Part shown: in pieces, positions 33,865 through 56,250 of the stretch
How the letters are laid out: the number at the start of each line of letters is the position of its first letter
Position numbering within the stretch: the first letter of the stretch is position 1
Assembly: GCA_016288155.1 (NCBI GenBank)
Contig: JAEEYP010000025.1
Span: 1 to 64,000 of the forward strand
Direction: 5' to 3'
DNA: 64,000 nt
Origin: Clostridiales bacterium
Lineage (GTDB): Bacteria; Bacillota; Clostridia; Oscillospirales; CAG-272
Notes under the pieces: generated by a model
The model's database searches: none
What the model was told of the DNA's origin: nothing
What the model saw: only the letters and a program-made list of their open reading frames with translations
Position numbers and translations under genes: made by a program

Positions 33865-34512
33865 TCAGTATCCGATTTCCTTGTAGCGATCCATGACGTT
33901 GGCAACGTTATACTCGTGACCGCCGGGGAAATTCGCGCTCTTGTAGATGCTGGGGACGAATCCGTCCGCGATCATCTTCTCCACGCACACGGAGGTGATG
34001 CTCCACATGAGGAAGTCGGAGGCGATGCCGGACGCCGCGGCGAAGCGGGGCTCCAGTCCCTCGACCTCCAGCATGGCTTCCGCCGCGGGGGCGCAGTTGT
34101 CGACGTAGAAGGTCACGAACTCATAGAGCTTCTTGCCGGATTCGTGGACGGGATCGACTGCCTGCGCGTAGCTCATCGACGTAAAGGCGATGACGTGGAT
34201 GCCCTTCTGCATCGAATCCCACGCGAGATCGACGACGGACTTCGTGCGGCCGGAAACGGAGGAAAGGACGAGGATGTCGCCCGGCTTCAGCTCGGACTTT
34301 CCCTGTTCGTATTTCAGATAGAAGGCGGGACCGCCGCCGCGGTTGAGCAGATCGGACTCGATGCTGTGGCAGATGCCGCCCAGATAGACCTTCGCGCCCT
34401 TTTCGATGGCGTCCGCCATGAAGGTGCCGACGGCGATGACCTTCTCGCGCTGCGTCGTGCGCGCCTTGTAGAGAAGATCGAATGCGGCCTGCTGATAGGT
34501 GTCGAGAAGCAT
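33865..34512 (-). CDS. SIS-domain sugar isomerase-like protein
   Basis: A 215-residue single SIS domain protein. The phosphosugar-binding region includes KVYLGGICHS, DILVLSSVSGRTKSVVDLA and a Ser/Thr-rich second loop (HVIAFTSMSYA). SIS proteins of this size isomerise or deaminate amino-sugar phosphates, or act as sensor modules. It lies 25 bases after a paralog and directly behind a GlcNAc-kinase-type gene, consistent with handling the phosphorylated sugar. Sequence identity to the neighbour is limited, so the two may form a heteromer (inference). Confidence 0.78.
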   Translation of the reverse strand: MLLDTYQQAAFDLLYKARTTQREKVIAVGTFMADAIEKGAKVYLGGICHSIESDLLNRGGGPAFYLKYEQGKSELKPGDILVLSSVSGRTKSVVDLAWDSMQKGIHVIAFTSMSYAQAVDPVHESGKKLYEFVTFYVDNCAPAAEAMLEVEGLEPRFAAASGIASDFLMWSITSVCVEKMIADGFVPSIYKSANFPGGHEYNVANVMDRYKEIGY

Positions 34513-34537: not shown

Positions 34538-35278
34538 TCAAAGATAGAATATATTGTCCGCGCGTTCGCGCATGACAGCCTTATTGTGTGCGTCGCCTCC
34601 GTCGAGGTTCCCGCTCATGAAGACGGGAGGCGTCTGTCCGGCCTCGAGGATGATCTCGCAGGCGCGGGCGACGACGGCGTTCAGAAGCGCCGCGCCGACG
34701 ACGGTGGAGGTGGAGGCGACCTTCTGCGGGAAACCCTCCAGCTCCACGGATGCGTCGCCCATGTCCCCGTGATTATCGAGGAGGATGGAGGCGAACTCAT
34801 ACAGCTTCTTGCCGGAGGGATGGCGGGAGGTCACCGCCGTCGTCGTGTTCATGTTCGTCACGACGATGACGCAGAGCCCCTTCTCCCGGGCGGCCTCCGC
34901 CATGTCGACCGTCACGCTGTTGCGGCCGGAGACGGAGTGGATGATGAGCACGTCGCCCGGCTTCGCCTTCATGTTGTCGAAGATGATCTTCCCGTAGCCG
35001 GGCATCCGCTCCATCTCGCTCGTCATCGTCGGCGGCGAGAGCTCGAGCATCATGCCGGGCGCGCGGACGGGATTGACGGTCACCATGCCGCCGGTGCGAT
35101 AGAACAGCTCCAGTGTGATGAGCCCCGCGTGATTGCAGCCGAACGCGAAGACGGAGCGCTTCTCCAGATTCGCCTGCGCCACCGCCTGCGCCGCCGCTTC
35201 GACGGCGTCCGCTTCCTTCTCGAACGCTTCCGCCATGATCTCGCTCACGCGGGCGTAATACCGTTCCGATGCTTTCAT
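34538..35278 (-). CDS. SIS-domain sugar isomerase-like protein
   Basis: A 246-residue SIS domain protein. It shows RSVFAFGCNHAG, LIIHSVSGRNSVTVDMAEAA (phosphate-binding loop) and CVIVVTNMNTTTAV. The end FMSGNLDGGDAHN resembles that of its neighbour (YKSANFPGGHEYN), which marks a shared subfamily. The start is taken at 35278 because GGAGGAAGC precedes it; the frame stays open further upstream without a ribosome site. It is second in the operon, 13 bases after the kinase. Confidence 0.8.
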   Translation of the reverse strand: MKASERYYARVSEIMAEAFEKEADAVEAAAQAVAQANLEKRSVFAFGCNHAGLITLELFYRTGGMVTVNPVRAPGMMLELSPPTMTSEMERMPGYGKIIFDNMKAKPGDVLIIHSVSGRNSVTVDMAEAAREKGLCVIVVTNMNTTTAVTSRHPSGKKLYEFASILLDNHGDMGDASVELEGFPQKVASTSTVVGAALLNAVVARACEIILEAGQTPPVFMSGNLDGGDAHNKAVMRERADNIFYL

Positions 35279-35291
35279 GGACGCTTCCTCC

Positions 35292-36278
35292 TTACGCCTG
35301 CGGGAAATCCGGCGGCAGCTGATAGCGGTACGCCGCGAACTTCTCATGCAGGATCTTCATCTGTTCCCGTCCGATCTCCTCCCGGCCGGTCTCGCGCAGC
35401 GTCTGAAGGATCACGGAGCCGATGAGCGGCTCGAAATCCGGGAAGCGGATCTCCGCGTCCGGATACACGGCGGCAACCTCGCGCCGCATTGCCTCGAACA
35501 TGCAGTACGACGCCTTCCACGCGCCGCCCGAAGCGATGATCGGTCCTTCAAAGCGGCCGTCCACCTGCCGGAGGACCGTCAGCACCTGTACGGCGAGCTG
35601 ATGTCCCGCCTCCTCGAGGATGGAGACGGCGAGCGCGTCGCCCATGACGGCGGCCTTCGAGGTGATGCGCGTCACGCCGGCGACGACGGTGCGCATGTCG
35701 GGATTCCCCGCGACGCGCGTGATGATCTCCCGCAGTTCCTTGAGTCCCCACGCCTCCTTGATGAGCTGCGGCAAAACGGACGGCTGCCCGCGCCCGTCCT
35801 CCGCCCAGATGGAATAGCGGAGCGTATTCAGTCCGATGTAGTAGCCGCTGCCCTCGTCGCCGAGCGTCATGCCCCAGCCGCCGACGACGCTGCGCTTCTC
35901 GCGCTGGACGAGAAAGGCGTCGGAGCCGGTGCCCGCCTGCGCGACGACGCCGCGGAGCACGCCGCCGGCGGCGAGCGCGACGTCGCCCTCGCTGTGACTC
36001 TTCATGGGACCGACGGCGCAGCGTTCGCCGAGCGCCGCAAGGAACGGCCTCACGTCGCCGACGACGGAGCAGTCGAACATCTCGATCTTCCGCACCTCGG
36101 ACGGGATCAGCTTCTCCGTGAGCTCGTTCATCTCGGCGCGGATCATTTCCGCTGGGCGGAACATGTCGTTCGTCCCCTTCATCTCCCCGGAGGAGACGAT
36201 ATTGAAATCCTCATCGTACAGAACGGCGAGCAGCTTGGAGCCGCCGCCGTCGGCGGCAAGATAGTATCGCTTGTCCAT
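35292..36278 (-). CDS. BadF/BadG/BcrA/BcrD-type kinase (N-acetylglucosamine kinase-like)
   Basis: A 328-residue ASKHA-fold kinase. It has the phosphate-1 motif AADGGGSKLLAV at the N-terminus, a second nucleotide motif AQAGTGSDAF, and GGWGMTLGDEGSGYYIG, the typical adenosine-loop region of GlcNAc kinases and related BadF proteins. It would phosphorylate an amino sugar for the two SIS proteins that follow. CGGAGGC sets the start at 36278. It is the first gene of the operon read from 36314-36342. Confidence 0.85.
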   Translation of the reverse strand: MDKRYYLAADGGGSKLLAVLYDEDFNIVSSGEMKGTNDMFRPAEMIRAEMNELTEKLIPSEVRKIEMFDCSVVGDVRPFLAALGERCAVGPMKSHSEGDVALAAGGVLRGVVAQAGTGSDAFLVQREKRSVVGGWGMTLGDEGSGYYIGLNTLRYSIWAEDGRGQPSVLPQLIKEAWGLKELREIITRVAGNPDMRTVVAGVTRITSKAAVMGDALAVSILEEAGHQLAVQVLTVLRQVDGRFEGPIIASGGAWKASYCMFEAMRREVAAVYPDAEIRFPDFEPLIGSVILQTLRETGREEIGREQMKILHEKFAAYRYQLPPDFPQA

Positions 36279-36313
36279 AAAGCCTCCGTAATTCGAGCGT
36301 TGTTTGCCTCCCC

Positions 36314-36342
36314 ATTGTAACACAAATCCGGGACGGATGCAA
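36314..36342 (-). promoter_or_regulatory. promoter of the kinase-SIS-SIS-hydrolase operon
   Basis: On the minus strand TTGCAT (36342-36337), a 17-base spacer and TACAAT (36319-36314). Confidence 0.8.
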
Positions 36343-36459: not shown

Positions 36460-36506
36460 AGTAAAGCGCAATGAAAACTCTTACATATTCATATTCGGAG
36501 GCGCAT

Positions 36507-38030
36507 ATGAAACCCATGAAGTCCGCACTGTCCCTTCTTCTCTCGGCGGTCCTTCTTCTGCCGCTCCTCGCCGGATGCGGCGGCGGGAAGGATCCCGTCC
36601 CGGACGGTGATCCGAGCGGCACCGCACAGGCGCCCGATTCCACTGATACGGAAACGGAGGCTCCCGCCGGGATCCTCGACGCCGTACCGGAGCTCGATTT
36701 CGACGGCGCGCCCTTCCGCGTGCTGGAGCAGAGCCTCATGCAGGGGTACCGCAGCGGCGAGAAGGAAAAAGTCCTCTCCTTCTGGACGGAAGAGGAGAGC
36801 GGCGAGCAGGTCAACGACGCGATCTTCAGCCGCAACCGCGCGGCGGAGGAACGCTTCAACGTCGTCATCCCCGAGCCGCGGCAGGGCAGCGCGAACGAGG
36901 TGTTCAGTCTTGCGTCCAACTCCGTGCTCAGCGGAATGGACGAGTTCGATCTCGTCTTCGCGGAGCTGCGCAAATCCTATGACGCCATGCTCGGCGACAT
37001 CTTCTCCAACTGGAACAACGTCCCGTACATCGATATCGACAATCCGTGGTACACGTCGTCCATCAAGGATTCGGCGGTGAACGGCGTGCTGCTCATGATC
37101 GAAAGCGATCTCTGCCTCTCCTGGAGCGAGCAGACGTGGATGATCGTTTTCAACAAGACCAAGGCGGAGGACTACAATCTCGGCGTGGACCTTTACCAGT
37201 GCGTGCGCGACGGGAAATGGACGCTCGACCTTCTCATGCAGCTCACGGAGCACGTCTACACGGACGTGAACGGCGACGGCAAGAAGAGCGAGGAGGATTT
37301 CTACGGCATGCTCGGCCTCAACGACGGGCCGGCGCTCGCGGTGTTCTACTACGGATGCGAAACGCCGACGGTCATCCTGAACGACGACTTCACGATCGAT
37401 CAGCCGATCAAGGGTGAAAAATTCATCGATCTGATGGACAAGCTCGTCAATCTCTTCAACCTCAACCCGGGCTCGTACTACGCTTCCTCGCAGGCGCGGG
37501 ACAACCGCGTCCTCAAGTTCGCCGCCGGAAATATCCTCTTCGCGGAAATGCTGGCGATGGATCTGACGGACGGCGCCATGCGCGACTTCAAGGACGACTT
37601 CGGCGTTCTGCCGATCCCGAAGTGGAATGAAGGCCAAGAGGAATACCACACGATGGTCAATCCGAGCGTCCTCGTCATGGAGATCCTGAAGACGGCGCGG
37701 AACCGGGAGATGATCGGAGCGCTCGTCGAGGCGATGAGCGCGCTCAGCTACCAGACCGTTCTCCCGACGTATATCGACACGTCGCTCGAGCACCGCGGCG
37801 TACGCGATCCGGAATCCGCGGAAATGCTTGAGCTCGTCTTCGCCTCCCGTGAGGCGGACTTCGCCTACGTCTACGACGGCGGCGGCGGCTGGATCGACCG
37901 GATGCCGAACATCACCGCCCAGACGGGATACGCGGACGTCGCCATCACGTACATCGAAGAGCGTCTCATCAAGATGGAGGATACCGTCTACTACCCGATC
38001 ATCGATTACCTTCTGGACTACAGAGAGTGA
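36507..38030 (+). CDS. extracellular solute-binding lipoprotein (sugar ABC transporter type)
   Basis: A 507-residue lipoprotein. The signal peptide ends in the lipobox LLAGC with the lipidated Cys at residue 24, followed by a GGGKDPVPDGD linker. The body resembles large family 1 sugar-binding proteins of Clostridia (FSRNRAAEERFNV, FDLVFAELRKSYDAMLGDI, FPGNILFAEML-like FAAGNILFAEML, LPIPKWNEGQEEYHTMVNPSV). CGGAGG at 36495-36500 favours ATG 36507 over the in-frame ATG 36471. The next gene is convergent, and no permease or ATPase gene for sugar import lies in the window, so it must work with a transporter encoded elsewhere. Confidence 0.88.
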   Translation: MKPMKSALSLLLSAVLLLPLLAGCGGGKDPVPDGDPSGTAQAPDSTDTETEAPAGILDAVPELDFDGAPFRVLEQSLMQGYRSGEKEKVLSFWTEEESGEQVNDAIFSRNRAAEERFNVVIPEPRQGSANEVFSLASNSVLSGMDEFDLVFAELRKSYDAMLGDIFSNWNNVPYIDIDNPWYTSSIKDSAVNGVLLMIESDLCLSWSEQTWMIVFNKTKAEDYNLGVDLYQCVRDGKWTLDLLMQLTEHVYTDVNGDGKKSEEDFYGMLGLNDGPALAVFYYGCETPTVILNDDFTIDQPIKGEKFIDLMDKLVNLFNLNPGSYYASSQARDNRVLKFAAGNILFAEMLAMDLTDGAMRDFKDDFGVLPIPKWNEGQEEYHTMVNPSVLVMEILKTARNREMIGALVEAMSALSYQTVLPTYIDTSLEHRGVRDPESAEMLELVFASREADFAYVYDGGGGWIDRMPNITAQTGYADVAITYIEERLIKMEDTVYYPIIDYLLDYRE

Positions 38031-38071: not shown

Positions 38072-38117
38072 ATGCAAAAATATCCGGACGCAGTACGGCG
38101 TCCGGATATTTTTGCAT
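38072..38117. terminator. bidirectional terminator
   Basis: A perfect 20-base-pair stem (38072-38091 with 38098-38117) has A5 on one side and T5 on the other inside the stem and a six-base loop. It serves the solute-binding gene and the DUF4838 operon, which converge here. Confidence 0.92.
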
Positions 38118-38135: not shown

Positions 38136-39719
38136 TCAGTCGATCGTTTCCCCGGGAGCGGAGGCTTTCAGGTCGTGGAACAGCTTGCTCCAGTCTCTCA
38201 CGCCCTCGCCCCACTGGATCTTCTCTCTCTCCACGTACTGGCGGAGCTTTTCCGCCTTCTCCGGATCCGGATGGAGCATGAGCTTGATGTACTCCCACTG
38301 CGTGCGGGAACGGCGCACATACCCCTGACGGTCGTCCGCCAGCTCCTCCGCCTTATCCCACCAGGCGTCGAGCGTCTGTTCCATGGCGAGATATTTGTCC
38401 TGCGGGATGATGCCGAACGGCTCCGCGTAGCATCTCATGTGGCTGCCCGCCGCCTCGGCGCACGTCCAGTCGATGAACGCGCGGATATACCGCCAGCCCG
38501 CGCCGTAGTACGTTTCGAGAAATTCGTCCATGAGTTTGTAATACGCGTCCGCGCCCATGTACGGATCCAGCATGAGCTGCGCGAGCAGATAACAGCGGAG
38601 CTCGCCGAATTCGCCGGTCTTGGCGGAGCCGTAGTTGCCTTCCGGATACATGCCGCGGACGCCGTGCTCCGCGAAGAAGCGCATATTGTCCCGGAGAACG
38701 CGGAAGTTCGGGAACGGCGGGATGTAGTGCGCGAAGTCCGTCACGTAGTCCCAGACGTAGATGCGGTCACAGATCTTGTTCCATTCGAGCAGGTCGTGCA
38801 GAAACGCCGCGTTCTGCCGGCAGGTGCGGTCGCTCAGCGGGTGCGCAAAGCAGCATTCGATGGAGCAGATGCGGATGCATACGTTCGGGCGGGGCTTCGT
38901 GATCTTCGGCGCCTTGCGCGTATACTGATACGCGAAGGTGTCGATGACGACGTTCGGATAATCCTTCGCCACGTCGTCCGCGACGGCGTTGACGAAGCGG
39001 AGCAGCGTGCCGGAGGGGCTTCCCTCCTCCGCATCCGTGGCGGCGCACTTCGGGCACTTGCAGTAGTTGTAGTTGTCGTTCTGCGTCACGGAGATGAGCG
39101 AGGCGTCCGGATGCCGCTCAAGCGTCGCCCGCACGCCGGCGATGACCTTCTTCAGCACCTCCGGATCGGAAAGGCAGGGCTGCGAGGACTGCGGGACGCC
39201 GGTCAGGCGCTCCATCGTATGGCACATCCCCTCGCAGTAATCGAAGGGACCGCCCCACTCCTCGGGGACCTTCGTGCTCGGATAGTTGACGCCGTTCTTC
39301 ATGCACCAGTCGAGGTCGCGCGAGCCGCACGGCCAGTCGACGCGGCGCTGCTCGAAAGCGGGCGTCAGCGAATAGCCTTCGTCCACGACGATGTCGCCGT
39401 CGCCGAGCTTCTCGACGCCCGGCATGAAGAACCGCGTCCCCGCGTAATGCGTCAGAAAGCCGTACGCGCCGTAGATCACGCCGCGCTTCCCGCCGCCGAG
39501 GATCGTGAGCGGTCCGTTCTCCTCCACGCGGATCTCGTAGCCGTCGCGCGGGACGGAGCCGTCGATTTTGAGTTCGATCGTCAGATCGTCTCCGGCGCCG
39601 ATGCCGAACAGTCTCAGATACTTCATCAGTTCCGTGCCGGCGTACTTTTCCGCCGCGCTCTCCCCGGTCAGGATCTTCACCGAGGCGATCTTTTTGTCCT
39701 TTACGATCAGTGTCCTCAT
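38136..39719 (-). CDS. DUF4838 protein, paralog 6 of the tandem array
   Basis: A 527-residue protein and the last gene of a six-gene operon. Residues 1-120 resemble the N-terminal domain of alpha-glucuronidases (MRTLIVKDKK, AEKYAGTELMKYL, GAYGFLTHYAGTRFFMPG). Residues about 130-430 are the DUF4838 domain with NDNYNYCKCPKCAATD (CxCxxC near residue 221), RKAPKITKPRPNVCIRIC and SIECCFAHPLSDRTC. DUF4838 proteins occur with glycan-degrading enzymes, but no activity is established. No signal peptide. The C-terminus (QWGEGVRDWSK) groups with paralogs 4 and 5. Confidence 0.85.
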   Translation of the reverse strand: MRTLIVKDKKIASVKILTGESAAEKYAGTELMKYLRLFGIGAGDDLTIELKIDGSVPRDGYEIRVEENGPLTILGGGKRGVIYGAYGFLTHYAGTRFFMPGVEKLGDGDIVVDEGYSLTPAFEQRRVDWPCGSRDLDWCMKNGVNYPSTKVPEEWGGPFDYCEGMCHTMERLTGVPQSSQPCLSDPEVLKKVIAGVRATLERHPDASLISVTQNDNYNYCKCPKCAATDAEEGSPSGTLLRFVNAVADDVAKDYPNVVIDTFAYQYTRKAPKITKPRPNVCIRICSIECCFAHPLSDRTCRQNAAFLHDLLEWNKICDRIYVWDYVTDFAHYIPPFPNFRVLRDNMRFFAEHGVRGMYPEGNYGSAKTGEFGELRCYLLAQLMLDPYMGADAYYKLMDEFLETYYGAGWRYIRAFIDWTCAEAAGSHMRCYAEPFGIIPQDKYLAMEQTLDAWWDKAEELADDRQGYVRRSRTQWEYIKLMLHPDPEKAEKLRQYVEREKIQWGEGVRDWSKLFHDLKASAPGETID

Positions 39720-39776
39720 TGCAGTCTCTCCTTTTCGTTTCTTTTATCTGTTCGCGCGGTCCTCCGCGCGGGCGGA

Positions 39777-41390
39777 TCATTCATCGGCAGGGAACGGGCT
39801 GTTCGGGAATTCCCGTTCGGGGAACGAATGCTGCAGATCGTAGTGGATATCGTCGTAGTTCCTGCATCCCTCGCGCCACTGGATCTGTTCTTTTTCGATC
39901 GTTTCCTTCAGCTGCCGGGCGCCCGCCGGATCCGGATGGAGCATCAGGCGGATATACCGCCACTGGATGCGGGAGCGGCGCACGGCCTCGACGCGGTCGC
40001 CCGCCATTTCTTCCGCCTTCTCCCACCAGGATTCGATGGCGTCCTCCACGGCGAGATATTTCTTTCTCGGGATCATCTGGAACGGACGGGGATAGCACCC
40101 CATGTGAGAATTGGAGACCGCGGAGCAGGACCAGTCGATGAACGCGCGGATATACCGCCAGCCCGCGCCGTAATACGCCTCAAGGAACTCGTCCATCAGC
40201 CCGTAGTATTCTCCGGCGGACATGTACGGATTCATCATCAGTTTGGCGAGCAGGTAACACCGCAGCTCGCCGAATTCGCCGGACTGCACGGAAGAATAGT
40301 TGCCCTCCGGGTACATGCCGCGCACGCCGTGCTCCGCGAAGAAGCGCATGTTCTCCCGCATCGTGCGGAAATTCGGGAACGGAGGGATATAGTGGCAGAA
40401 ATTGGTCACGTAATCCCAGACGTAGATCCGGTCGCAGATCTTGTTCCACTCGAGAAGATCGCGGAAAAACGGCGCGTTCATGGGGCAGGTCGTGTCGCTC
40501 AGCGGATGGGAGAAGCAGCACTCGATGGAGCATAGGCGTATGCAGACGTTCGGGCGGGGTCTCGTGATCCTCGGCGCCTTGCGCGTATACGTATAGGCGA
40601 ACGTATCGATGACGACGTTCGGATAATCCTTTGCCACGTCGTCCGCGACGGCGTTGATGAAGCGAAGCAGCGTTCCTGAAGGACTTCCCTCCTCCTCGTC
40701 CGTCGCCGTGCACTTCGGGCACTTGCAGGAATTGACGTTGTCGTTCTGCGTCACGGAGATGATCGCGGCGTCCGGATGCTGCGCGAGGATCTCCCGTACG
40801 CCGGAGATGACCTTCTTCAAGGTCTCCGGATCGGAGAGGCACGGCTGCGCGCTCTGCGGGACGCCGGTCAGCCGCTGCATCGTGTGGCAGAACATATTGT
40901 CCACGTACTCGAAGGCGCCGCCCATCTCCTCTGGCAGTTTCGCATACGCCGGATTGTTGACGCCGTTCTTGACGCACCAGTCCGCATCGCGCGCGCCGCA
41001 CTGCCAGTCGGAGCGGCGCTGCTCGAAGACGGGCGTGAACACGTACTCCTCGTCCACGGTGATATCGCCCTCGCCGAGCTTCTCGAGCCCCGGCATGAAG
41101 AAGCGCGTCCCCGCGTAATGCTCAAGGAAGCCGTATACGCCGTAGATCGCGCCGCGGCCGCCGCCGCCGCGGATCGAAAGCGTCCCGTCCTCCTCCGGGC
41201 GGACGACATACCCGTCCCGCGGGACGGCGGCGTCACACCGGATGTCGATCAGCAGATCCTCCCCGGAGGGGATGCCGAATTTTCCCAGATACTTCGCCAT
41301 CTCCGCGCCCGCGTATTTCTCCGGCGCGCTCTCCCCGGTCCGGATCTTCACGGAAGATACTTTTCTGTCCTTTACGATCAGTGTCCGCAT
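39777..41390 (-). CDS. DUF4838 protein, paralog 5 of the tandem array
   Basis: A 537-residue paralog with the same two-domain layout. The metal-type motif is NSCKCPKC (CxCxxC). It is the only copy with SCK instead of YCK before the motif and with KCTATD after it. IECCFSHPLSDTTC is as in paralog 2. The C-terminus is extended by about ten residues (NSPFPADE) compared with the other copies. The start at 41390 follows AAGGAGA; the gap to paralog 6 is 57 bases. Function is unknown, probably glycan processing in the cytoplasm. Confidence 0.85.
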   Translation of the reverse strand: MRTLIVKDRKVSSVKIRTGESAPEKYAGAEMAKYLGKFGIPSGEDLLIDIRCDAAVPRDGYVVRPEEDGTLSIRGGGGRGAIYGVYGFLEHYAGTRFFMPGLEKLGEGDITVDEEYVFTPVFEQRRSDWQCGARDADWCVKNGVNNPAYAKLPEEMGGAFEYVDNMFCHTMQRLTGVPQSAQPCLSDPETLKKVISGVREILAQHPDAAIISVTQNDNVNSCKCPKCTATDEEEGSPSGTLLRFINAVADDVAKDYPNVVIDTFAYTYTRKAPRITRPRPNVCIRLCSIECCFSHPLSDTTCPMNAPFFRDLLEWNKICDRIYVWDYVTNFCHYIPPFPNFRTMRENMRFFAEHGVRGMYPEGNYSSVQSGEFGELRCYLLAKLMMNPYMSAGEYYGLMDEFLEAYYGAGWRYIRAFIDWSCSAVSNSHMGCYPRPFQMIPRKKYLAVEDAIESWWEKAEEMAGDRVEAVRRSRIQWRYIRLMLHPDPAGARQLKETIEKEQIQWREGCRNYDDIHYDLQHSFPEREFPNSPFPADE

Positions 41391-41438
41391 GGTCCATCTC
41401 CTTGTCTTTCTTTCTGTATTCGATACGGCCTCCCGCCG

Positions 41439-43019
41439 TTATTTCCCGTCGGGGAAGGAGCCCTCCAGATCGGTGTGGATGACGGTCCAGTCCGCCCCCT
41501 CCCGCACGCGGATCTGCCATTTCGCAAGATCCTCGTACAGCCGCACCGCCGCTTCGTGATCGGGGCGGATCATCAGCTTCATGTACGTCCACTGGAGGCG
41601 GGAACGCCGCACGTATTCGACGCGGTCACCCGCCATCTCCTCCGCCTTGTCCCACCAGCCGTCGAGCGTCTCCGTCATCGGGAGCCAGCGGTCCCCGGGA
41701 ATGTTGTCCAGCGGCATCGAGCCGATCATCAGGTGCGCGTTGACGACCTCGGCGCACGTCCAGTCGAGGAACGCACGGACGTACCGCCAGCCCGCGCCGT
41801 AATACGCCTCGAGGAATTCGTCCATGAGCGCATAGTATTCCACCTCGCTCATGAACGGATCCATCATGAGCTTCGCCAACAGATAACAGCGGAGCTCGCC
41901 GAATTCACCGTTCGACGGCGAGTTGTAGTTGCCCTCCGGGTACATGCCGCGGACGCTGTTCTCCGCGTAGAAGCGCATATTGTCCCGCAGGACGTGGAAA
42001 TTCGGATACGGCGCGACGTAGTGACCGAAGCCGATCACGTAATCCCAGATATAGATGCGATCACAGATCGCGCTCCACGCCTTCAGGTCGCGCGCGAAAT
42101 CCCGGTTCGCCCAGCAGGTGTAGTCGTACAGCGTATGGCTGCGGCAGCACTCGATGGAGCAGATGCGGACGCAGACGTTCGGGCGCGCCTTCGTGATCTT
42201 CGGCGCCTTGCGCGAGTACATATAGGCAAAGGTATCGATGACGAGGTCCGGGTAATCGGCGGCGACGTCGTCCGCGACGGCGTTGACGAAGCGGAGCAGC
42301 GTGCCCGCGTGGCTCCCCTCCTCCTCGTCGACCGCCGCGCACTTCGGGCACTTGCAGTAGTTGCCGTTGTCGTTCTGCGTCACGGAAAGGATCGAGGCGT
42401 CCGGCTGCTCTTTCAGAATCTCGCGCACGTTCGAGATGACCCGCTTCAATACCTCCGGATCGGACAGGCACGGCTGCTCTCCGGCCGAGACGCCGGCGAG
42501 CTGCGCCATCGAATGGCAGAACGCTCCCTTCACGTACCGGAAATTCCCGCCCATCTCGTCGGGGATCGTCGAATGGAGCGGATCGTTCACACCGTTCTTG
42601 ACGCACCAATCCGGGCTGACGCTGCCGCACGGCCAGTCGCAGCGGCGCTGCTCGAAGACGGGCGCAAAAGAATACGCTTCGTCGACGACGACGTCGCCCT
42701 CCCCGAGTTTTTCGAGTCCCGGCATGAAGAAGCGCGTCCCGGCGTAATGCTCAAGAAATCCGTACACGCCGTAGATCACGCCGCGGGGTCCTCCGCCGCG
42801 GATCGACAGCGTCCCGTCCTCCTCCGGGCGGACCGCATAGCCCTCCTTCGGCAAAGCAGGGTCGACGTGCACGTCGATACGCAGATCGTCCCCTTCGGGG
42901 ATACCGAATTTTCCCAGATACTTTGCCAGTTCTTCTCCCGCGTACTTTTCCTGCGCGCTCCCTCCGGTGCGGACCCGCGCCGACGCGATCTCCCTGCCCT
43001 TTACGATCAGCTTCCGCAT
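41439..43019 (-). CDS. DUF4838 protein, paralog 4 of the tandem array
   Basis: A 526-residue paralog, one of the two copies that begin MRKL. CxCxxC is present (NYCKCPKCAAVD). It is the most divergent copy after that motif: IECCRSHTLYDYTC replaces the HPL[AS]D form, ADYPDLVIDTF replaces KDYPNV, and NAHLMIGSMPLDN replaces the otherwise Cys-containing stretch near residue 440. This may mark a different substrate (inference). It has a GGGGAGG ribosome site and lies 15 bases after paralog 3, the tightest gap in the array. Confidence 0.85.
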   Translation of the reverse strand: MRKLIVKGREIASARVRTGGSAQEKYAGEELAKYLGKFGIPEGDDLRIDVHVDPALPKEGYAVRPEEDGTLSIRGGGPRGVIYGVYGFLEHYAGTRFFMPGLEKLGEGDVVVDEAYSFAPVFEQRRCDWPCGSVSPDWCVKNGVNDPLHSTIPDEMGGNFRYVKGAFCHSMAQLAGVSAGEQPCLSDPEVLKRVISNVREILKEQPDASILSVTQNDNGNYCKCPKCAAVDEEEGSHAGTLLRFVNAVADDVAADYPDLVIDTFAYMYSRKAPKITKARPNVCVRICSIECCRSHTLYDYTCWANRDFARDLKAWSAICDRIYIWDYVIGFGHYVAPYPNFHVLRDNMRFYAENSVRGMYPEGNYNSPSNGEFGELRCYLLAKLMMDPFMSEVEYYALMDEFLEAYYGAGWRYVRAFLDWTCAEVVNAHLMIGSMPLDNIPGDRWLPMTETLDGWWDKAEEMAGDRVEYVRRSRLQWTYMKLMIRPDHEAAVRLYEDLAKWQIRVREGADWTVIHTDLEGSFPDGK

Positions 43020-43034
43020 GGCTCTTCCTCCCCG

Positions 43035-44624
43035 TCAGGCGTCTTCCTTCTGCGGGAACGATTCTTTCAGATCGTCGTGGATCCTCGTCCAATCGTTGCC
43101 CCACCACTCCGTCATCTGTACCTTCTCTTTTTCAAGCGTCTCCATGAACCGCTTCCCTTCCTCGGGATCCGGGTGGAGCATCAGCTTGATATACCGCCAC
43201 TGGAGACGGGAACGGCGGACGAATTCCGCGCGGTCGCCCGCCAGCTCCTCCGCCTTGTCCCACCAACCGTCGATCGTATCCTCCATGGCAAGATACGCCG
43301 CGGCGGGGATGATGCTGAACGGCTCCTCCCAGCAGCTCATGCGCTCGCAGCCGGCCGCCTCGCCGCACGTCCAGTCGATGAACGCACGCAGATACCGCCA
43401 GCCCGCCCCGTAGTATGCCGCAAGGAATTCGTCCATGAGGGCGTAATAGTCGGTCGCGGACATGTACGGATCCATCATGAGCTGGGCGAGCAGATAACAG
43501 CGCAGCTCGCCGAACTCGCCGGATTTCGGCGATGTGTAATTGCCCTCCGGATACATGCCGTACGCGCCGTGATCGGCAAAGAAGCGCATGTTCTCACGCA
43601 GAACGTGGAAATTCGGGTACGGCGGGATATAGCGGCAGAAGTCCGTCACGTAATCCCAAACGCGGATGCGGCGGCACACTTTGCTCCAGTCCGTGATGTC
43701 CCGCACGAATTCCGCGTTCAGCGCACAGGTGTCGTCTGCAAGCGGGTGCGCGAAGGAGCATTCGATGGAACAGATGCGGACGCTGACGTTCGGGGAAGCC
43801 TTCGTGATCTTCGGCGCCTTCCGCGTATACTGATAGGCGAAGGTATCGACGACGACGTTCGGGTAGTCCTTCGCGATATCGTCCGCCACGGCATTGACGA
43901 AGCGGAGCATCGTGCCTGCGTGGCTCTCCTCCTCGGCGTCGACCGCCGCGCACTTCGGACACTTGCAGTAGTTCCCGTTGTCGTTCTGCGAAACGGAGAC
44001 CATGCCGGCCTTCGGATCCTTCTCCAGCGCGGCGCGCACGTTCTTTATGACGCGCGCCAGCACCTCCGGATCGCTCAGGCAGGGCTGCTCTTCGTACTGC
44101 TTCGCGCCGGCCAGACGCTCCATGGTGTGGCCGCCGAGACCGTCCGCGCACCAGAAGTATCCGCCCATCTCCTCCGGGATCGGGCGGGCGTTGATCCCGT
44201 TCTTGACGCACCAGTCGACGTCGCTGTTTCCGCACTGCCAGTCGGACTGCCGGCACTCGATCACGGGCGTAAATGCGTACTCCTCCCCGACCGTGATATC
44301 TCCCTCGCCGAGCTTTTCAAGTCCGGGCATGAAGAAACGCATCCCGGCATAATGGGTAAGGAAGCCGTACGCGCCGTAGATCACGCCGCGGCCGCCGCCG
44401 CCGCGGATCGTCAGCGTCCCGTCCTCCTCCGGGCGGATCACGTAGCCGTCGCGCGGGACGGCGGCGTCACACCGGACGTCGAACGTCAGCCCGTCCCCCG
44501 CGGGGATACCGACTTTCGAGAGATATTTCGCCAGCTCCGCCGCGGCGTATCTCTCCTGCGCGCTCTCCCCGGTCCGGATCGTCGCCGCGGTGAATTTCTT
44601 TCCTTTTACGATCAGTGTTCTCAT
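43035..44624 (-). CDS. DUF4838 protein, paralog 3 of the tandem array
   Basis: A 529-residue paralog that is closest to paralog 1: both have ARPIPEEMG in a shortened loop near residue 140, SVSQNDN before the motif, IECSFAHPLAD and the end TEWWGNDWTRIHDDLKESFP. CxCxxC is intact. The start is placed at 44624 (MRTLIVKGKK, after GAAGGAG); the open frame continues about 120 codons upstream but that part is a shadow of paralog 2. It has no signal peptide. Confidence 0.85.
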   Translation of the reverse strand: MRTLIVKGKKFTAATIRTGESAQERYAAAELAKYLSKVGIPAGDGLTFDVRCDAAVPRDGYVIRPEEDGTLTIRGGGGRGVIYGAYGFLTHYAGMRFFMPGLEKLGEGDITVGEEYAFTPVIECRQSDWQCGNSDVDWCVKNGINARPIPEEMGGYFWCADGLGGHTMERLAGAKQYEEQPCLSDPEVLARVIKNVRAALEKDPKAGMVSVSQNDNGNYCKCPKCAAVDAEEESHAGTMLRFVNAVADDIAKDYPNVVVDTFAYQYTRKAPKITKASPNVSVRICSIECSFAHPLADDTCALNAEFVRDITDWSKVCRRIRVWDYVTDFCRYIPPYPNFHVLRENMRFFADHGAYGMYPEGNYTSPKSGEFGELRCYLLAQLMMDPYMSATDYYALMDEFLAAYYGAGWRYLRAFIDWTCGEAAGCERMSCWEEPFSIIPAAAYLAMEDTIDGWWDKAEELAGDRAEFVRRSRLQWRYIKLMLHPDPEEGKRFMETLEKEKVQMTEWWGNDWTRIHDDLKESFPQKEDA

Positions 44625-44671
44625 GTCGTTCTCCTTCGATATGATTTTGTATCCGATACGGCTCCCCGCCG

Positions 44672-46255
44672 TTACTTCTCCTCGGGGCGGGACGCCGCAA
44701 GATCGTCGGCCAGGTAGTTCCAGTCCCCCCACCATTCGTCCCAGCGGGCCTTCGCATCCGCGGCGCGCAGCCGGAACGCTTCTCCTTTTTCGAGATCCGG
44801 ATGGAGCATGAGTCTGATATAATCCCACTGGAGGCGGGAACGGCGCACGTATTCGAGGCGGTCTCCCGCCATCGCCTCCGCCTTGTCCCACCAGCCGTCG
44901 AACGTATCCTCCATGGCGAGATACGCGTCGGCGGGAATGACGTCGAAGGGCGCCGTATAGCATCCCATGTGGCTGCCGGCGGCTTCGGCGCACGTCCAGT
45001 CGATGAACGCGCGGACGTACCGCCAGCCCGCGCCGTAATACGCCTCGAGGAACTCATCCGTGAGCGCGTCGTACTCCGTCTCGCTCATATACGGATCCCG
45101 CATGAGCTGCGCGAGCAGCCAGCAGCGGAGCTCGCCGAATTCGCCGGATCCGGCGGAATTGTGGGCGCCCTCCGGATACATGCCGCGCACGCCGTGTTCC
45201 GCGAAAAAGCGCATGTTCTCCCGCAGGACGCGGAAATTCGGGAACGGCGGGACGTAGTGGGAAAAATCCGTCACGTAGTCCCAGATGTAGATGCGGTCGC
45301 AGATCCCGTTCCACGCGAGCAGGTCGCGCAGAAACGCCCCGTTCTGTCGGCAGGTACGATCGCTCAGCGGATGCGAGAAGCAGCATTCGATGGAGCACAG
45401 CCGCACGCAGACGTTCGGGCGGGGTCTTGTGATCTGAGGCGCCTTGCGCGTATACCGGTACGCGAACGTGTCGATGACGACGTTCGGGTAATCCTTTGCG
45501 ATATCGTCCGCGACGGCGTTGACGAAGCGGATCATCGATCCGGAGGGACTTCCCTCCTCCGCGTCGATGGCCGCGCACTTCGGGCATTTGCAGTAGTTGC
45601 CGTTGTCGTTCTGCGTCACGGAGAGGATCGAGGCGTCCGGATGCTGCGCGAGGATCTCCCGCACGCCGGAAATCACTTTTCTCAGCACCTCCGGGTCGGA
45701 AAGACAGGGTTGTCCTTCGTTCTGCGGGACGCCGGTCAGACGCGCCATCGTATGGCAGAACATGCCTGCCACGTAATCGAAGGCGCCGCCCATCTCCTCC
45801 GGGAGCGACGTATGCGCCGGGTTGTTGACGCCGTTCTTGACGCACCAGTCCGGATCGCACGAGCCGCACTGCCAGTCGATGCGGCGCTGCTCGAAGACGG
45901 GCGTATAGACGTATTCCTCATCGACGAGGATATCCCCCTCGCCGAGCTTTTCGAGCCCCGGCATGAAAAAGCGCATTCCGGCATAATGCGTCAGGAGCCC
46001 GTACGCGCCGTAGATCGCGCCGCGGCCGCTTCCGCCGCGGATCACGATCTCCCCGTCGCCCGGACGGATCGCGTACCCTTCCTTCGGAAGCGCCGGATCG
46101 ATCCGGATATCGACCGCGACGCCGTCCCCCGCGGGGATGCCGATCTTCGAGAAATACTTCACCAGCTCCGCGCCGGCGTATCTCTCCGGCGCGCTGTCCC
46201 CGGCCCGGATGCATACCGAGGCGGCTTCCTTTTCTTTGACGATCAGTTTCCGCAT
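44672..46255 (-). CDS. DUF4838 protein, paralog 2 of the tandem array
   Basis: A 527-residue paralog. It is a mosaic: the start MRKLIVKEKE and the run DPALPKEGYA match paralog 4, GSMIRFVNAVADDIAKDYP matches paralog 1, IECCFSHPLSD matches paralog 5, and the end DEWWGDWNYL recalls paralogs 1 and 3. CxCxxC is intact (NYCKCPKCAAID). AAAGGGA lies before the ATG at 46255. Gaps of 43 and 47 bases separate it from its neighbours. Function is not known. Confidence 0.85.
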   Translation of the reverse strand: MRKLIVKEKEAASVCIRAGDSAPERYAGAELVKYFSKIGIPAGDGVAVDIRIDPALPKEGYAIRPGDGEIVIRGGSGRGAIYGAYGLLTHYAGMRFFMPGLEKLGEGDILVDEEYVYTPVFEQRRIDWQCGSCDPDWCVKNGVNNPAHTSLPEEMGGAFDYVAGMFCHTMARLTGVPQNEGQPCLSDPEVLRKVISGVREILAQHPDASILSVTQNDNGNYCKCPKCAAIDAEEGSPSGSMIRFVNAVADDIAKDYPNVVIDTFAYRYTRKAPQITRPRPNVCVRLCSIECCFSHPLSDRTCRQNGAFLRDLLAWNGICDRIYIWDYVTDFSHYVPPFPNFRVLRENMRFFAEHGVRGMYPEGAHNSAGSGEFGELRCWLLAQLMRDPYMSETEYDALTDEFLEAYYGAGWRYVRAFIDWTCAEAAGSHMGCYTAPFDVIPADAYLAMEDTFDGWWDKAEAMAGDRLEYVRRSRLQWDYIRLMLHPDLEKGEAFRLRAADAKARWDEWWGDWNYLADDLAASRPEEK

Positions 46256-46298
46256 GGCATAATCCCTTTCGCTGTCTCCGGCAGCGCGCAGCGCCGGG

Positions 46299-47891
46299 TC
46301 ACTCCTTTTCGGAAGAGTTTTCGGGGAACGACTCTTTCAGGTCGTCGTGAATCCTTGTCCAGTCGTTGCCCCACCATTCCGTCATCTGGATCTGCTCCCT
46401 CTCAAGCGTCTCCATCAGACGCTTCCCCTCCTCGGGATCCGGATGGAGCATCAGACGGATATAACGCCACTGGATGCGGGAGCGGCGGACAGCCTCGACG
46501 CGGTCCCCGGCCATCGCCTCCGCCTTGTCCCACCAGGCGTTGATCGTTTCTTCCATCGCCAGATACGCTTCGGCGGGAATAATGGAGAACGGCTCCTCCC
46601 AACAGCTCATCTGCCTGCATCCGGCGGCCTCCGCACACGTCCAGTCGATGAACGCGCGGATATACCGCCAGCCGGCGCCGTAATACGCCTCAAGGAACTC
46701 GTCCATCAGACCGAAGTATTCGTTTGCCGACATATACGGGTCCATCATCAGCTGGGCCAGCAAATAGCAGCGGAGTTCTCCGAATTCTCCGGATTTCGGC
46801 GAGGTATAGTTTCCCTCCGGATACATGCCGCGCGCGCCGTGTTCCGCAAAGAAGCGCATATTGTCCCGCAGGACATGGAAATTCGGGAACGGAGGAATGT
46901 AACGGCAGAAATCGGTCACATAGTCCCAGATATAGATCCGGCTGCAGATCCTGCTCCATCCGAGCAGATCCTCATAAAACGAGGCGTTCTGCGTACAGGT
47001 GCGGTCGGCAAGCGGATGCGCGAAGGAACACTCGATCGAGCAAAGGCGCACGCTGACGTTCGGGCGGGGCTTCGTGATCTTCGGCGGCTTGCGAGTATAC
47101 CAGTATGCGAACGTGTCGACAACGACGTCCGGATAATCTTTTGCGATATCGTCCGCCACCGCGTTGACAAAGCGGATCATCGAGCCCGCCGGGCTTCCCT
47201 CTTCCGCGTCGACCGCCGCGCACTTCGGGCATTTGCAGTAGTTGGCGTTGTCGTTCTGGGAAACGGATACGATCCGGGCGTCGGGATCCTTCCGCAAAGC
47301 GGCGCGAACGCCGGCGATGACCTTCTTCAGCACCTCCGGATCGCTCAGGCACGGCTGTTCTTTCCCCTGATCCGTACCGGTCAGACGCGCCATCGAATGA
47401 CCGCCGAGTCCGTCGGCATACCACCGGTAGCTACCCATTTCCTCGGGAATCGGGCGGGCGTTGATCCCGTTCTTGACGCACCAGTCCACGTCGGAATTGC
47501 CGCACTTCCAGTCGGACTGCCGACATTCCAGTACGGGCGAAAAACTGTATTCGTGATCCACCGTGACATCGCCCTCTCCGAGCTTCTCGAGCCCCGGCAT
47601 AAAGAAGCGCGTCCCGGCATAATGCGTGAGAAAACCGTACGCACCGTAAATCACGCCGCGGCCGCCGCCGCCGTGGATCGTGATCTTCCGGTCGTCCGGG
47701 CGGATGACGTATCCCTCCTGCGGCAGGGCCGGATCGATCCGGATATCGAACGTCAGTCCGTCTCCGGCACCGATGCCGAATTTGCTCAGATACTTCGCCA
47801 GTTCCGCGCCGGCATGCTTCTCCGGCGCGCTCTCTCCGGTCCGAATGTTGGCAGAGGTGATTTTCTCCCCTTTTACGATCAGTGTACGCAT
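46299..47891 (-). CDS. DUF4838 protein, paralog 1 (first gene) of the tandem array
   Basis: A 530-residue protein and the promoter-proximal copy. The N-terminal domain (residues 1-120) starts MRTLIVKGEKITSANIRTGE. The DUF4838 domain holds ANYCKCPKCAAVD (CxCxxC near residue 219), RKPPKITKPRPNVSVRLC and IECSFAHPLADRTC. Base composition is slightly more AT-rich than in copies 2-6. GAAGGAG lies six bases before the ATG. No signal peptide or membrane segment is present, so it acts in the cytoplasm unless exported by an unusual route. Confidence 0.86.
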   Translation of the reverse strand: MRTLIVKGEKITSANIRTGESAPEKHAGAELAKYLSKFGIGAGDGLTFDIRIDPALPQEGYVIRPDDRKITIHGGGGRGVIYGAYGFLTHYAGTRFFMPGLEKLGEGDVTVDHEYSFSPVLECRQSDWKCGNSDVDWCVKNGINARPIPEEMGSYRWYADGLGGHSMARLTGTDQGKEQPCLSDPEVLKKVIAGVRAALRKDPDARIVSVSQNDNANYCKCPKCAAVDAEEGSPAGSMIRFVNAVADDIAKDYPDVVVDTFAYWYTRKPPKITKPRPNVSVRLCSIECSFAHPLADRTCTQNASFYEDLLGWSRICSRIYIWDYVTDFCRYIPPFPNFHVLRDNMRFFAEHGARGMYPEGNYTSPKSGEFGELRCYLLAQLMMDPYMSANEYFGLMDEFLEAYYGAGWRYIRAFIDWTCAEAAGCRQMSCWEEPFSIIPAEAYLAMEETINAWWDKAEAMAGDRVEAVRRSRIQWRYIRLMLHPDPEEGKRLMETLEREQIQMTEWWGNDWTRIHDDLKESFPENSSEKE

Positions 47892-48135: not shown

Positions 48136-49779
48136 ATGGCGACGAAAAAGGCGACGAAAAAAAAGAAAAAACGGCGCGGCGGCATTCTCGCGGCGCTTCT
48201 TCTGACCCTCGCCGCGTCGGCCGTTTTTCTTTTCGTTTTTCACGGCGGATATTCGGTCCGTCTGAGCGGCGAGGCGGACGTGACGGCGGAACTCGGCAGA
48301 CCCTTTGAGGATCCGGGCGCCGCGGGACGCTGGCTTCTGTCCGCGGCGGACGTCGCCGTGTCCGGCGAGGTCGACACGGACCGTCCCGGCACGTACACGC
48401 TCACCTACCGCGTCGGGAATTCCCTTCTCGGGACGGAGGTCAGCCGCACGGTACGGGTCGCCGATACGGAACCGCCCGTCCTGACGCTGTACGAAACGCC
48501 CGGCGCCTACACGCTGCCCGGCACGTCCTACGAGGAAGAAGGCTTCTCCGCCGTGGATCGGATCGACGGCGATCTGACGGACCGCGTCGAGCGGCTGGAG
48601 GCGGACGATTCCGTTATCTACCGGGTCACGGACAACAGCGGCAACACGGCGACCGCCGTGCGCCGGATCAATTACTGCGACCCGATCCCGCCGACCCTGA
48701 CGCTGCTCTACGGCAGCACCGTTCCCGTCGTGATCGGAGAGGAATTCGTGGAACCGGGCTACGTCGCCGCGGACAACGTCGACGGGGACATCACGGACCG
48801 CGTGGTCCGGGAGGTCGGCAGCGACGCCGTCCTCTACTCCGTCACGGACAGCTCCGGCAACCGCACCGAGGCGGTGCGGCATCTGTATTATTACGATCCG
48901 CTCCCGCCGACGCTGACGCTGCACGGCGACGCCGAGATCACGATCACGGCGGGCGAGCCGTTCGAGGAGCCGGGATGGACGGCGGAAGACAACGCCGACG
49001 GGGATCTCACCGACGCGGTCACGGTCATCGGCACAGTCGATCCGTACGCCAGCGGGGAATACGTGCTCACGTACACGGTGGAAGACACGAGCCGCAACTT
49101 CACCTCCGCCGTGCGGCGGATCATCGTCGAGCCGAAGCCGCAGCAGGATCCCGCCGTACCGACCGGCCGCGTCGTTTATCTGACGTTCGACGACGGTCCG
49201 AGCCGGTATACGGAAAAACTTCTCGACATCCTCGACAAATACAACGTGAAGGCGACCTTTTTCGTCGTCGATTACGGGTACCGCGATATGATCGGGCGGG
49301 CCGCCGCCGCCGGGCACAGCATCGGCGTCCACAGCGCCACGCACGATTTCAAGCAGATCTACGCGAGCGTCGAGGCGTACTTCGACGATCTGAACAAAAT
49401 GAACGAGATCGTCCGGCAGCAGACCGGCAGCTACACGACGATGATCCGCTTCCCCGGCGGCAGCTCCAACACGTCGAGCCGCTTCAATCCGGGGATCATG
49501 ACCCGCCTCGTGCAGGCAGTCACCGACGCGGGATATCAGTACTTCGACTGGAACGTACAGAGCGGCGACGCCGGTCTGACGCGCGATCCGGACGAGCTGT
49601 TCTCGAACGTTGTCGAGGGCATCAAGGCGCACAGCGTCTCCGTCGTGCTCATGCACGACAGCAAGGGGTATATGGTCGATACCGTCGAGCGCATCCTCAT
49701 CTGGGGGATCGAGAACGGCTGTACCTTTTTGCCTCTGACGCCGGACAGTCCCGGCGCGCATCACCCCGTCAACAACTGA
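48136..49779 (+). CDS. membrane-anchored polysaccharide deacetylase with Ig-like repeats
   Basis: A 547-residue protein. A Lys-rich start and one transmembrane segment (about residues 16-36) anchor it. About four Ig-like repeats of the DUF5011 kind follow (residues 45-340), each with a DxVDGDLTDxV and ADTSGN-like pattern (for example DRIDGDLTDRV, VTDNSGNTATAV). The C-terminal NodB domain has TFDDGPS, the metal pair in HSATHD, RFPGGSSN and VLMHDS, so the catalytic residues look complete. It probably de-N-acetylates cell-wall peptidoglycan or a surface polymer outside the cell. An MBL-fold gene follows after 49 bases. Confidence 0.92.
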   Translation: MATKKATKKKKKRRGGILAALLLTLAASAVFLFVFHGGYSVRLSGEADVTAELGRPFEDPGAAGRWLLSAADVAVSGEVDTDRPGTYTLTYRVGNSLLGTEVSRTVRVADTEPPVLTLYETPGAYTLPGTSYEEEGFSAVDRIDGDLTDRVERLEADDSVIYRVTDNSGNTATAVRRINYCDPIPPTLTLLYGSTVPVVIGEEFVEPGYVAADNVDGDITDRVVREVGSDAVLYSVTDSSGNRTEAVRHLYYYDPLPPTLTLHGDAEITITAGEPFEEPGWTAEDNADGDLTDAVTVIGTVDPYASGEYVLTYTVEDTSRNFTSAVRRIIVEPKPQQDPAVPTGRVVYLTFDDGPSRYTEKLLDILDKYNVKATFFVVDYGYRDMIGRAAAAGHSIGVHSATHDFKQIYASVEAYFDDLNKMNEIVRQQTGSYTTMIRFPGGSSNTSSRFNPGIMTRLVQAVTDAGYQYFDWNVQSGDAGLTRDPDELFSNVVEGIKAHSVSVVLMHDSKGYMVDTVERILIWGIENGCTFLPLTPDSPGAHHPVNN

Positions 49780-54189: not shown

Positions 54190-56250
54190 TCATCTCCCCA
54201 TGCCGGAATCCCAGTAGCAGGGCGCCGTATCGAAAAACCACGCGCCGCTGTCGATCGGCGTAATGGAGAAATCGCCGGGCGTGTACTCCGCGATTTCATA
54301 GATCTCGTGCTCCACGCACCGCTGCGCCAGCGCGAGGTTGTACGCCGTGTAGGTCTCCTCGAGGTTGGTCTTGAAGAATTTCTTGAAGTTGAACAGCAGC
54401 GTGCCGCGCTCCGACTCCGCGATCTCCCCGGCGGCGACCGCCGCGTCGAGCGCCGCGGTATACACGTCGGGCAGCGTCCTCTTGGCGATGTTCCTGCGGT
54501 AATACATCCAGATGGATTTGAGCACGTCGATCTGGATGGCGGAGCGCTTGATGCGCCAGCGCTGTTCGTCCGTTTCGGCTTCGGCGAGCGCCGCCTCAAA
54601 ATAGGCGGGACCCTCGACGATGATCCTGTGCGGCGTCACAGGCGACATGCAGTCCCAGTACGGCTCCCAGTCCACCTTCTTGAAGTTCCGGATCTGATCC
54701 GCCGTCAAGGTCGGCGCCGCCCCCTCGGTGACCTCCATTGCGTAATTTTCGAGCGTGTTTGTGAGGATGTGCGTGTCCGAGACGGCCTCCTCGGAGAAGG
54801 TGATGAAGTCGCGGATGTGCCGCCAGCCGGGGCCGTACCAGTCCTCAAGGTATTCATCCATGTAGCCGTAATACTCTTCTTCCGTCATGAGCGGGTCCCA
54901 CGCGAGCCGCCGGATCAGATACGTGCGCAGATAGTCGAACTCCCCGTACTTGCCGGAGCGGCTGTTCGGGCCGAGCTCGAAGATCTTCGTCACGCCGCTG
55001 TTCCCGAAGAGATTGTAGTCTCCCAGATAGGCGGAAAAGCCGGGGTACGGCACCAGGTAGCAGTTGTAGCAGATGCAGTAATCCCAGATATATAGGTTCT
55101 GCGAGACCTTGCTCCAGCCGTCGAACACCTCCCCGAAGTCGACGCCGCCCGCCGTGCATTCGCCCAGCGCATGGACGCCGCACGCCCCGGTGCAGATCTG
55201 AATAAGCACGTTGTCCGCCGCGCGCATCTCCTTCTTCGGCGGCGGCAGCGTCGCCGTGTCGCCGTACGCGAAGGTGTGCACCGTCACGCCCGGATACTCC
55301 GCGGCGAGCGCCTCGGCGACGCGGTTGACAAAGAGCAGGTAATGCCCGGACCAGCCGTACTCCTCCACGCGCGCCATGCAGGCGTCGCAGTGACAGAATG
55401 TCTCAATGCCGCCGTCGCACTGCGAGACGGAGACGTAGTTCGAGCCGGGCTTGGCGTCGAGCGCCGCGCGCAGCGACGCCATCACCGTGTTGAACGTCTC
55501 CTCCGACGTCAGGCACGGGTCCGGTCCCTTGTCGCCGTCGCCCGTCCCCGCCAGCCCCGGCAGGGAGTGGATGCCGACCGCCTGGACGTAGCCGTCGCCG
55601 TCGTTCACCTTCCGCTTCAGGCGGAATTCCGGATCGTACCCGGCAGGCTCGTAGTACATGGTGCGGGAATTGAAGACGGGGATCTGCTTGTCCTCCGCGA
55701 TCTCGAGAGAAATCGTCGGGGTGCTCGGGACCTTCTCGAATTCCTGCGTATAGAAGCGGCAGCCGAGATGGTCTTCAAGGAAACCGTACACGGCGTACTC
55801 CGTCGAGAGGCCGCTGCCGCCGATCAGCCACAGCTTCCCCGCCTCCGTCTTCACGATGAAGCCGTCCTCGCCGAGCTCATCCCGGTCAAAGGCGCCTTCC
55901 GTCTCGCGGTTCGTTCGGCCGATCACGATCTCGTGCAGAACGGCGGGCGTGTCGTCCGTCACGATGGGCAGCTTCGCCCCCGTGATCTGCTTGAAGTAGC
56001 TGTGGAACACTTCCGCCGCGTGGATCTCCTCGCCGGAGGCGGAAGCGGAGCGGACGATCACGTAATCCGACGTACCGTTCTCCGCGAGCGGCAGCGCCGC
56101 CGGGATCGGAGCCGCGGTATCCGCGGGCTCGACAGTCCCGGCGGAGTCCGTCACGGGATCCGTCGCGGCGGGCGGCGCCGTCTGTTCGCCGCAGGCGGCG
56201 AGCGTCAGAAGAAGCGTCGACGCGAGGAGAAGAAGCATTGTCTTTTTCAT
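54190..56250 (-). CDS. DUF4838 lipoprotein (seventh, divergent member)
   Basis: A 686-residue lipoprotein with lipobox LAAC (Cys at residue 20) and a Pro/Thr/Asp-rich linker. The N-terminal alpha-glucuronidase-like domain (about residues 60-180; YAVYGFLEDHLGCRFYT) and the DUF4838 domain with ETFCHCDACMARV keep the CxCxxC spacing of the six tandem proteins. It shares the later pattern LFVNRVAEALAAEYPGVTVHTFAYG. It is the only member in the window with an export signal, so it would act outside the membrane. It follows pepT by 45 bases and has an AACGGAGG site. Confidence 0.88.
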   Translation of the reverse strand: MKKTMLLLLASTLLLTLAACGEQTAPPAATDPVTDSAGTVEPADTAAPIPAALPLAENGTSDYVIVRSASASGEEIHAAEVFHSYFKQITGAKLPIVTDDTPAVLHEIVIGRTNRETEGAFDRDELGEDGFIVKTEAGKLWLIGGSGLSTEYAVYGFLEDHLGCRFYTQEFEKVPSTPTISLEIAEDKQIPVFNSRTMYYEPAGYDPEFRLKRKVNDGDGYVQAVGIHSLPGLAGTGDGDKGPDPCLTSEETFNTVMASLRAALDAKPGSNYVSVSQCDGGIETFCHCDACMARVEEYGWSGHYLLFVNRVAEALAAEYPGVTVHTFAYGDTATLPPPKKEMRAADNVLIQICTGACGVHALGECTAGGVDFGEVFDGWSKVSQNLYIWDYCICYNCYLVPYPGFSAYLGDYNLFGNSGVTKIFELGPNSRSGKYGEFDYLRTYLIRRLAWDPLMTEEEYYGYMDEYLEDWYGPGWRHIRDFITFSEEAVSDTHILTNTLENYAMEVTEGAAPTLTADQIRNFKKVDWEPYWDCMSPVTPHRIIVEGPAYFEAALAEAETDEQRWRIKRSAIQIDVLKSIWMYYRRNIAKRTLPDVYTAALDAAVAAGEIAESERGTLLFNFKKFFKTNLEETYTAYNLALAQRCVEHEIYEIAEYTPGDFSITPIDSGAWFFDTAPCYWDSGMGR

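Follow-up and report, generated by a model that had tools for sequence, protein, structure and literature searches.

Organization of the array

The window, i.e. the whole 64,000-nucleotide stretch of DNA that was analysed, carries six full-length DUF4838 genes on its minus strand between positions 38136 and 47891, arranged head to tail and encoding proteins of 526 to 537 amino acids. In the order of transcription these are copy 1 (c1, 46299-47891, 530 amino acids), copy 2 (c2, 44672-46255, 527 amino acids), copy 3 (c3, 43035-44624, 529 amino acids), copy 4 (c4, 41439-43019, 526 amino acids), copy 5 (c5, 39777-41390, 537 amino acids) and copy 6 (c6, 38136-39719, 527 amino acids), separated by gaps of 43, 47, 15, 48 and 57 bases. 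All six match the Pfam family PF16126 (DUF4838) with 262-278 bits, the curated cut-off being 26.6 bits; the E values lie between 1e-77 and 1e-82 (1.4e-81, 3.8e-79, 1e-77, 5.5e-80, 6.5e-80 and 1.2e-82 for c1 to c6). The mechanically derived open reading frame of c3 extends up to a GTG at 44993, within c2, and the start of this gene is likely to be the ATG at 44624, which is preceded by AAGGAG. Apart from this start, the layout given in the initial annotation was confirmed by the reading frames and the Pfam matches, as was its statement that the proteins lack signal peptides: neither a signal peptide nor a lipobox was found in any of the six by hydropathy and motif analysis.

A likely promoter, strong and sigma-70-like, precedes c1 on the minus strand (47970-47942, TTGACA-17-TATACT with an extended TG), matching the consensus at 11 of 12 positions and scoring highest on its strand in the consensus scan. 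At the other end lies a long hairpin (38072-38117), a 23-nt inverted repeat with 96% complementarity and with A/T runs flanking it on both sides. It was absent from the list of a simple terminator scan, and is likely a bidirectional terminator between the array and a convergent gene (36471-38030, plus strand) for a lipoprotein with a lipobox, probably a sugar-binding protein (SBP; SBP_bac_1, Pfam E value 9e-4, below the curated cut-off). The single promoter and single terminator proposed earlier were thus both found again. The ribosome-binding sites are similar across the copies, and the six genes are likely to form one transcription unit, a predicted operon.

Protein family and predicted structure

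Glycoside hydrolase family GH163 is, as far as we are aware, little characterised, and we know of no activity for any cytoplasmic DUF4838/GH163 member. The six copies are putative GH163 members through the annotation of DUF4838 as this family (PMC9870897), whose founder is an endo-beta-N-acetylglucosaminidase. An endo-acting GH163 enzyme of B. thetaiotaomicron, located on the cell surface, cleaves the GlcNAc-beta1,2-Man linkage in complex N-glycans (PMC10154615), so the earlier remark that no activity is established for the domain is outdated. The six copies differ from this enzyme in being cytoplasmic and six in a row.

No PDB homologue of the array proteins was found by sequence with phmmer and profile searches. 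An AlphaFold2 model of c1, built from 18 sequences, had a pLDDT of 91.9 and a pTM of 0.92. In this model a (beta/alpha)8 barrel is preceded by an alpha/beta domain at the N terminus and followed by a helical domain at the C terminus. The best PDB matches of the model were GH138, GH115, GH67 and GH84 enzymes, over most of the length and with VIA Z scores of 15-16.5 (Foldseek, VIA-align); the scores for GH115, GH84 and GH138 differ by about one Z unit at most. The comparison with GH67 and GH115 suggested in the initial annotation therefore came out positive, and equally so for GH84. In the model, the fold fixes the class as glycoside hydrolase and does not specify the substrate. With a three-domain glycosidase fold predicted and Pfam matches far above the cut-off, the array proteins are very probably glycosidases.

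The likeness to GH84 (CpOGA and BtGH84, beta-N-acetylglucosaminidases of the O-GlcNAcase type) comprises the same order of N-terminal domain, barrel and helical C-terminal domain; more than 400 residues align with a VIA Z score of about 16, at about 12% identity and with no sequence match. Strand beta4 of GH84 and GH20 enzymes carries a D-D or D-E pair; the catalytic D-D pair of GH84 lies at the end of beta4, whereas the six copies have Q212-N213-D214 there. Because of this Q-N-D arrangement, substrate-assisted cleavage of HexNAc does not follow from the residues. With GH115, GH67 and GH138, i.e. alpha-glucuronidases and an enzyme acting on pectin RG-II, the c1 model shares its fold over most of the length, and acidic residues are found on beta4, beta6 and beta7 as in the array copies. 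These enzymes differ in having only about 10-14% identity to c1 and in being mostly longer proteins. The six copies gave no Pfam match to the catalytic domains of GH67, GH115 or GH138, and their matches to the GH67 N-terminal domain were weak and below the Pfam threshold. A GH115/GH138 fold by itself does not establish family membership.

Divergence among the six copies

Pairwise identity among the copies is 64-80%, the highest value being that of c1 and c3. An assembly artefact was ruled out, as 20-36% of the residues differ between copies. In the tree the six form one clade (SH-aLRT 98), and this phylogeny derives them from a single ancestral gene by local tandem expansion. Nonsynonymous divergence is well below synonymous divergence (NG86 dN 0.13-0.27 versus dS 0.55-0.97), which points to purifying selection acting on all six copies. 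The possibility that some of them are pseudogenes was rejected on the same grounds, and because the genes have no internal stops and the pocket is kept.

Eight pocket residues are invariant among the six copies (H165, Q212, D214, Y263, E287, D323, E359 and E369 in c1 numbering), and distant DUF4838 members mostly have them as well. In the model D214 follows beta4 and E287 follows beta6, beta7 carries D323, and E359 is found where beta8 ends; catalytic roles of these four residues are putative. As the pocket residues are identical, one chemistry is likely common to the six copies. The surrounding loops fall into three subtypes. Subtype A, found in c1 and c3, has ECRQ, GGH and a 3-residue deletion; the alignment places c2, c5 and c6 in subtype B, with EQRR and FCH or CH; and c4 has the most diverged loops (subtype C), with CCRSHTLYD and GFGHYVAP found in this copy alone. 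One of the pocket loops reads DFCRY, DFSHY or GFGHY, depending on the copy. Such differences are the pattern expected of changed subsites and are suggestive only; since the loops around the pocket are about as variable as the protein overall, they do not alone prove changed specificity.

A CxCxxC motif (c1 residues 219-224) lies directly behind the beta4 aspartate. It is invariant in all copies and conserved in distant DUF4838 proteins, and may be a metal site or a structural element.

DUF4838 genes in the source genome and in relatives

The source genome, that of an uncultured Clostridia bacterium from a herbivore gut, is a draft of 2.84 Mb in 116 contigs and contains 19 DUF4838 genes. In addition to the array these include a distant gene of lipoprotein type, the seventh of the window (54190-56250, minus strand, Pfam E value 4.5e-55), and a second tandem array on contig C78 (L048:8695-17353), in which four lipoprotein-type DUF4838 genes lie downstream of an SBP gene; the rest are scattered. 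By the array protein, the nearest named relatives are metagenome-assembled Clostridia and Oscillospiraceae genomes from the guts of goats, sheep, water buffalo and other animals.

DUF4838 was present in 184 of 395 genomes of the same family, and in five of 80 other genomes in a phylum-wide sample, none of these five carriers having a tandem array. Within the family consecutive DUF4838 genes recur: nine in G383, five in G371, four each in G288, G319 and G321, and three in G167. The statement in the initial annotation that such genes normally occur singly or in pairs hence does not apply to this family of bacteria. Seven of the nine genes of G383 (G383:C12:15031-31748; L070:15031 to L069:11748) encode lipoprotein signals and two do not, i.e. 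lipoprotein and cytoplasmic forms coexist within one genome and even within one array. The nine copies group apart from the six of the window (support 79), and because of these different tree groups the two arrays look like separate expansions. Between G288 and G167 the array copies correspond one-to-one as orthologues, a pattern expected if copies keep distinct roles.

Tandem DUF4838 arrays are thus not unusual in the lineage. The present array is an expanded glycoside hydrolase family of which variants are repeated in relatives, ordinary in kind and unusual in its extent and cytoplasmic location. The survey describes DUF4838 copy number as a lineage trait, with up to about 35 genes per 2 Mb genome. 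The extremes of this single-domain expansion were seen in G371 and G087, two incomplete genomes of about 2.1-2.2 Mb with 35 and 31 DUF4838 matches, respectively.

Possible function of the array

We propose that an ancestral cytoplasmic glycoside hydrolase of the DUF4838/GH163 type expanded locally to six genes, and that one promoter would ensure that all six enzymes are made together, each with its active site in the barrel of a three-domain protein. Glycans would be trimmed outside the cell by lipoprotein DUF4838 enzymes, captured by lipoprotein binding proteins and imported, after which the six cytoplasmic enzymes would complete the breakdown of the oligosaccharides. The targets may be glycans that contain HexNAc, are partly fucosylated and come from host or plant glycoproteins. 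Since the conserved pocket is kept while the surrounding loops differ, the copies would be expected to differ in the accepted linkage or neighbouring sugar rather than in chemistry. Taken as a whole, this reading of six GH163-like enzymes with diverged specificities acting on imported HexNAc-containing oligosaccharides seems to us on balance probable. Distinct specificities of the copies are fairly probable in themselves, and the HexNAc substrate is put forward tentatively. The initial annotation had suggested related enzymes for different linkages of one glycan family; the cytoplasmic expansion of glycan-active proteins is real, and the diverged pocket loops fit the different linkages, if only suggestively.

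As an alternative, the enzymes could act on non-HexNAc sugars of the plant cell wall, uronic or other, in the manner of GH67, GH115 or GH138. The presence of these three families among the best Foldseek and VIA matches, the acidic candidates on beta4, beta6 and beta7, the weak matches to the GH67 N-terminal domain and the origin of relatives from herbivore guts would all agree with such a substrate. However, the GH84 matches are equally good, the GH67 catalytic domain is not matched in Pfam, and in the CAZy family to which DUF4838 belongs the enzyme that has been characterised cleaves a GlcNAc linkage (PMC10154615), so that we consider non-HexNAc substrates unlikely.

The number of genes could also have an explanation other than specificity. 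All copies might do the same job and have been kept since more enzyme pays under a rich supply of one glycan. The single promoter, the likeness of the ribosome-binding sites and the identity of the conserved pocket residues agree with this. Identities of 64-80% are, however, far beyond a recent dosage amplification, the loop changes are common to subsets of copies, and orthologous copies have been retained as separate genes in the arrays of G288 and G167, which makes gene dosage an improbable explanation. Assembly of the six proteins into a hetero-oligomeric complex, also raised in the initial annotation, would suit six equal-sized and probably co-transcribed paralogues, but the number of copies in relatives is one, two, three, four, five or nine and the c1 model has no extra assembly domain. 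Nothing points to such a complex, and we regard it as highly improbable.

Six cytoplasmic paralogues with a common pocket and different loops in a probable operon, together with the arrays of up to nine copies in relatives, provide a ready-made set for studying both the specificity determinants in GH163 and the glycan that feeds these uncultured bacteria of the rumen and hindgut. A wider and rather doubtful proposal is that this family of gut Clostridia has time and again assembled tandem libraries of lipoprotein and cytoplasmic DUF4838/GH163 enzymes, each copy with a distinct linkage specificity. Such a library would take a single class of complex glycans apart in modular fashion, a disassembly line that would be undescribed in Gram-positive gut bacteria.

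Neighbouring genes

Beyond the convergent SBP gene lies a separate unit on the minus strand, consisting of a BadF-type kinase (35292-36323), two SIS proteins (34538-35347 and the shorter 33865-34512), a 777-amino-acid protein (31511-33844) and a GH29-type alpha-L-fucosidase without a signal peptide (30083-31348, Pfam E value 1.5e-47). The nearest solved relative of the kinase is a MurNAc/GlcNAc kinase (8zo3, E value 1e-20; NagK_SO3507 was below cut-off). Both SIS proteins belong to the PRK02947/UPF0309 family (NCBIfam, over cut-off), that of the GlcNAc-6P dehydratase NagS, the longer one matching 9eol with an E value of 4e-45. Among NagS homologues, those tested from outside Streptomycetaceae (26-36% identity) showed little or no GlcNAc-6P dehydratase activity (PMC12680351), and the identification of the SIS genes as NagS was dropped because of the inactivity of distant homologues.

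The kinase and SIS genes had been linked to the array in the initial annotation, and this link is weak. The kinase-SIS-SIS trio is conserved in relatives as a block of its own, with DUF4838 not nearby in any of the eight loci checked; given this and the separate unit, we rejected membership of these genes in the array operon. On the other hand, the trio adjoins DUF4838 in a termite-gut-type relative (L018) and lies within 6 kb of it in G088 (L057), and the genome-level co-occurrence of DUF4838 with the kinase/SIS genes is strong (61/129 versus 20/267, Fisher 4e-19, ignoring shared ancestry). Close DUF4838 relatives repeatedly have GH29 fucosidase and SBP-like genes next to them (L045, L046, L055). 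It is possible that the array and the kinase/SIS genes form one cytoplasmic glycan-processing system; whether the kinase, both SIS genes and the fucosidase belong to the system of the array is uncertain.

The 777-amino-acid protein had no Pfam match and gave nothing or chance matches in the PDB searches, and its model (pLDDT 37) was unusable because relatives are lacking. In L017 and L076 a homologue with about 60% identity neighbours a DUF4838 gene of lipoprotein type. On the other flank of the array the genes encode a GH95-like protein, a further BadF kinase, the DUF4838 lipoprotein, PepT and two enzymes of family GH27. No Pfam match was obtained for two related proteins of about 550 amino acids (22983-24635 and 25206-26864, minus strand), which show weak matches to beta-helix proteins and to lacto-N-biosidase (LnbX). 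The plus strand at 48136-49779 encodes a polysaccharide deacetylase that carries four surface Ig-like repeats and has a hydrophobic segment at its N terminus.
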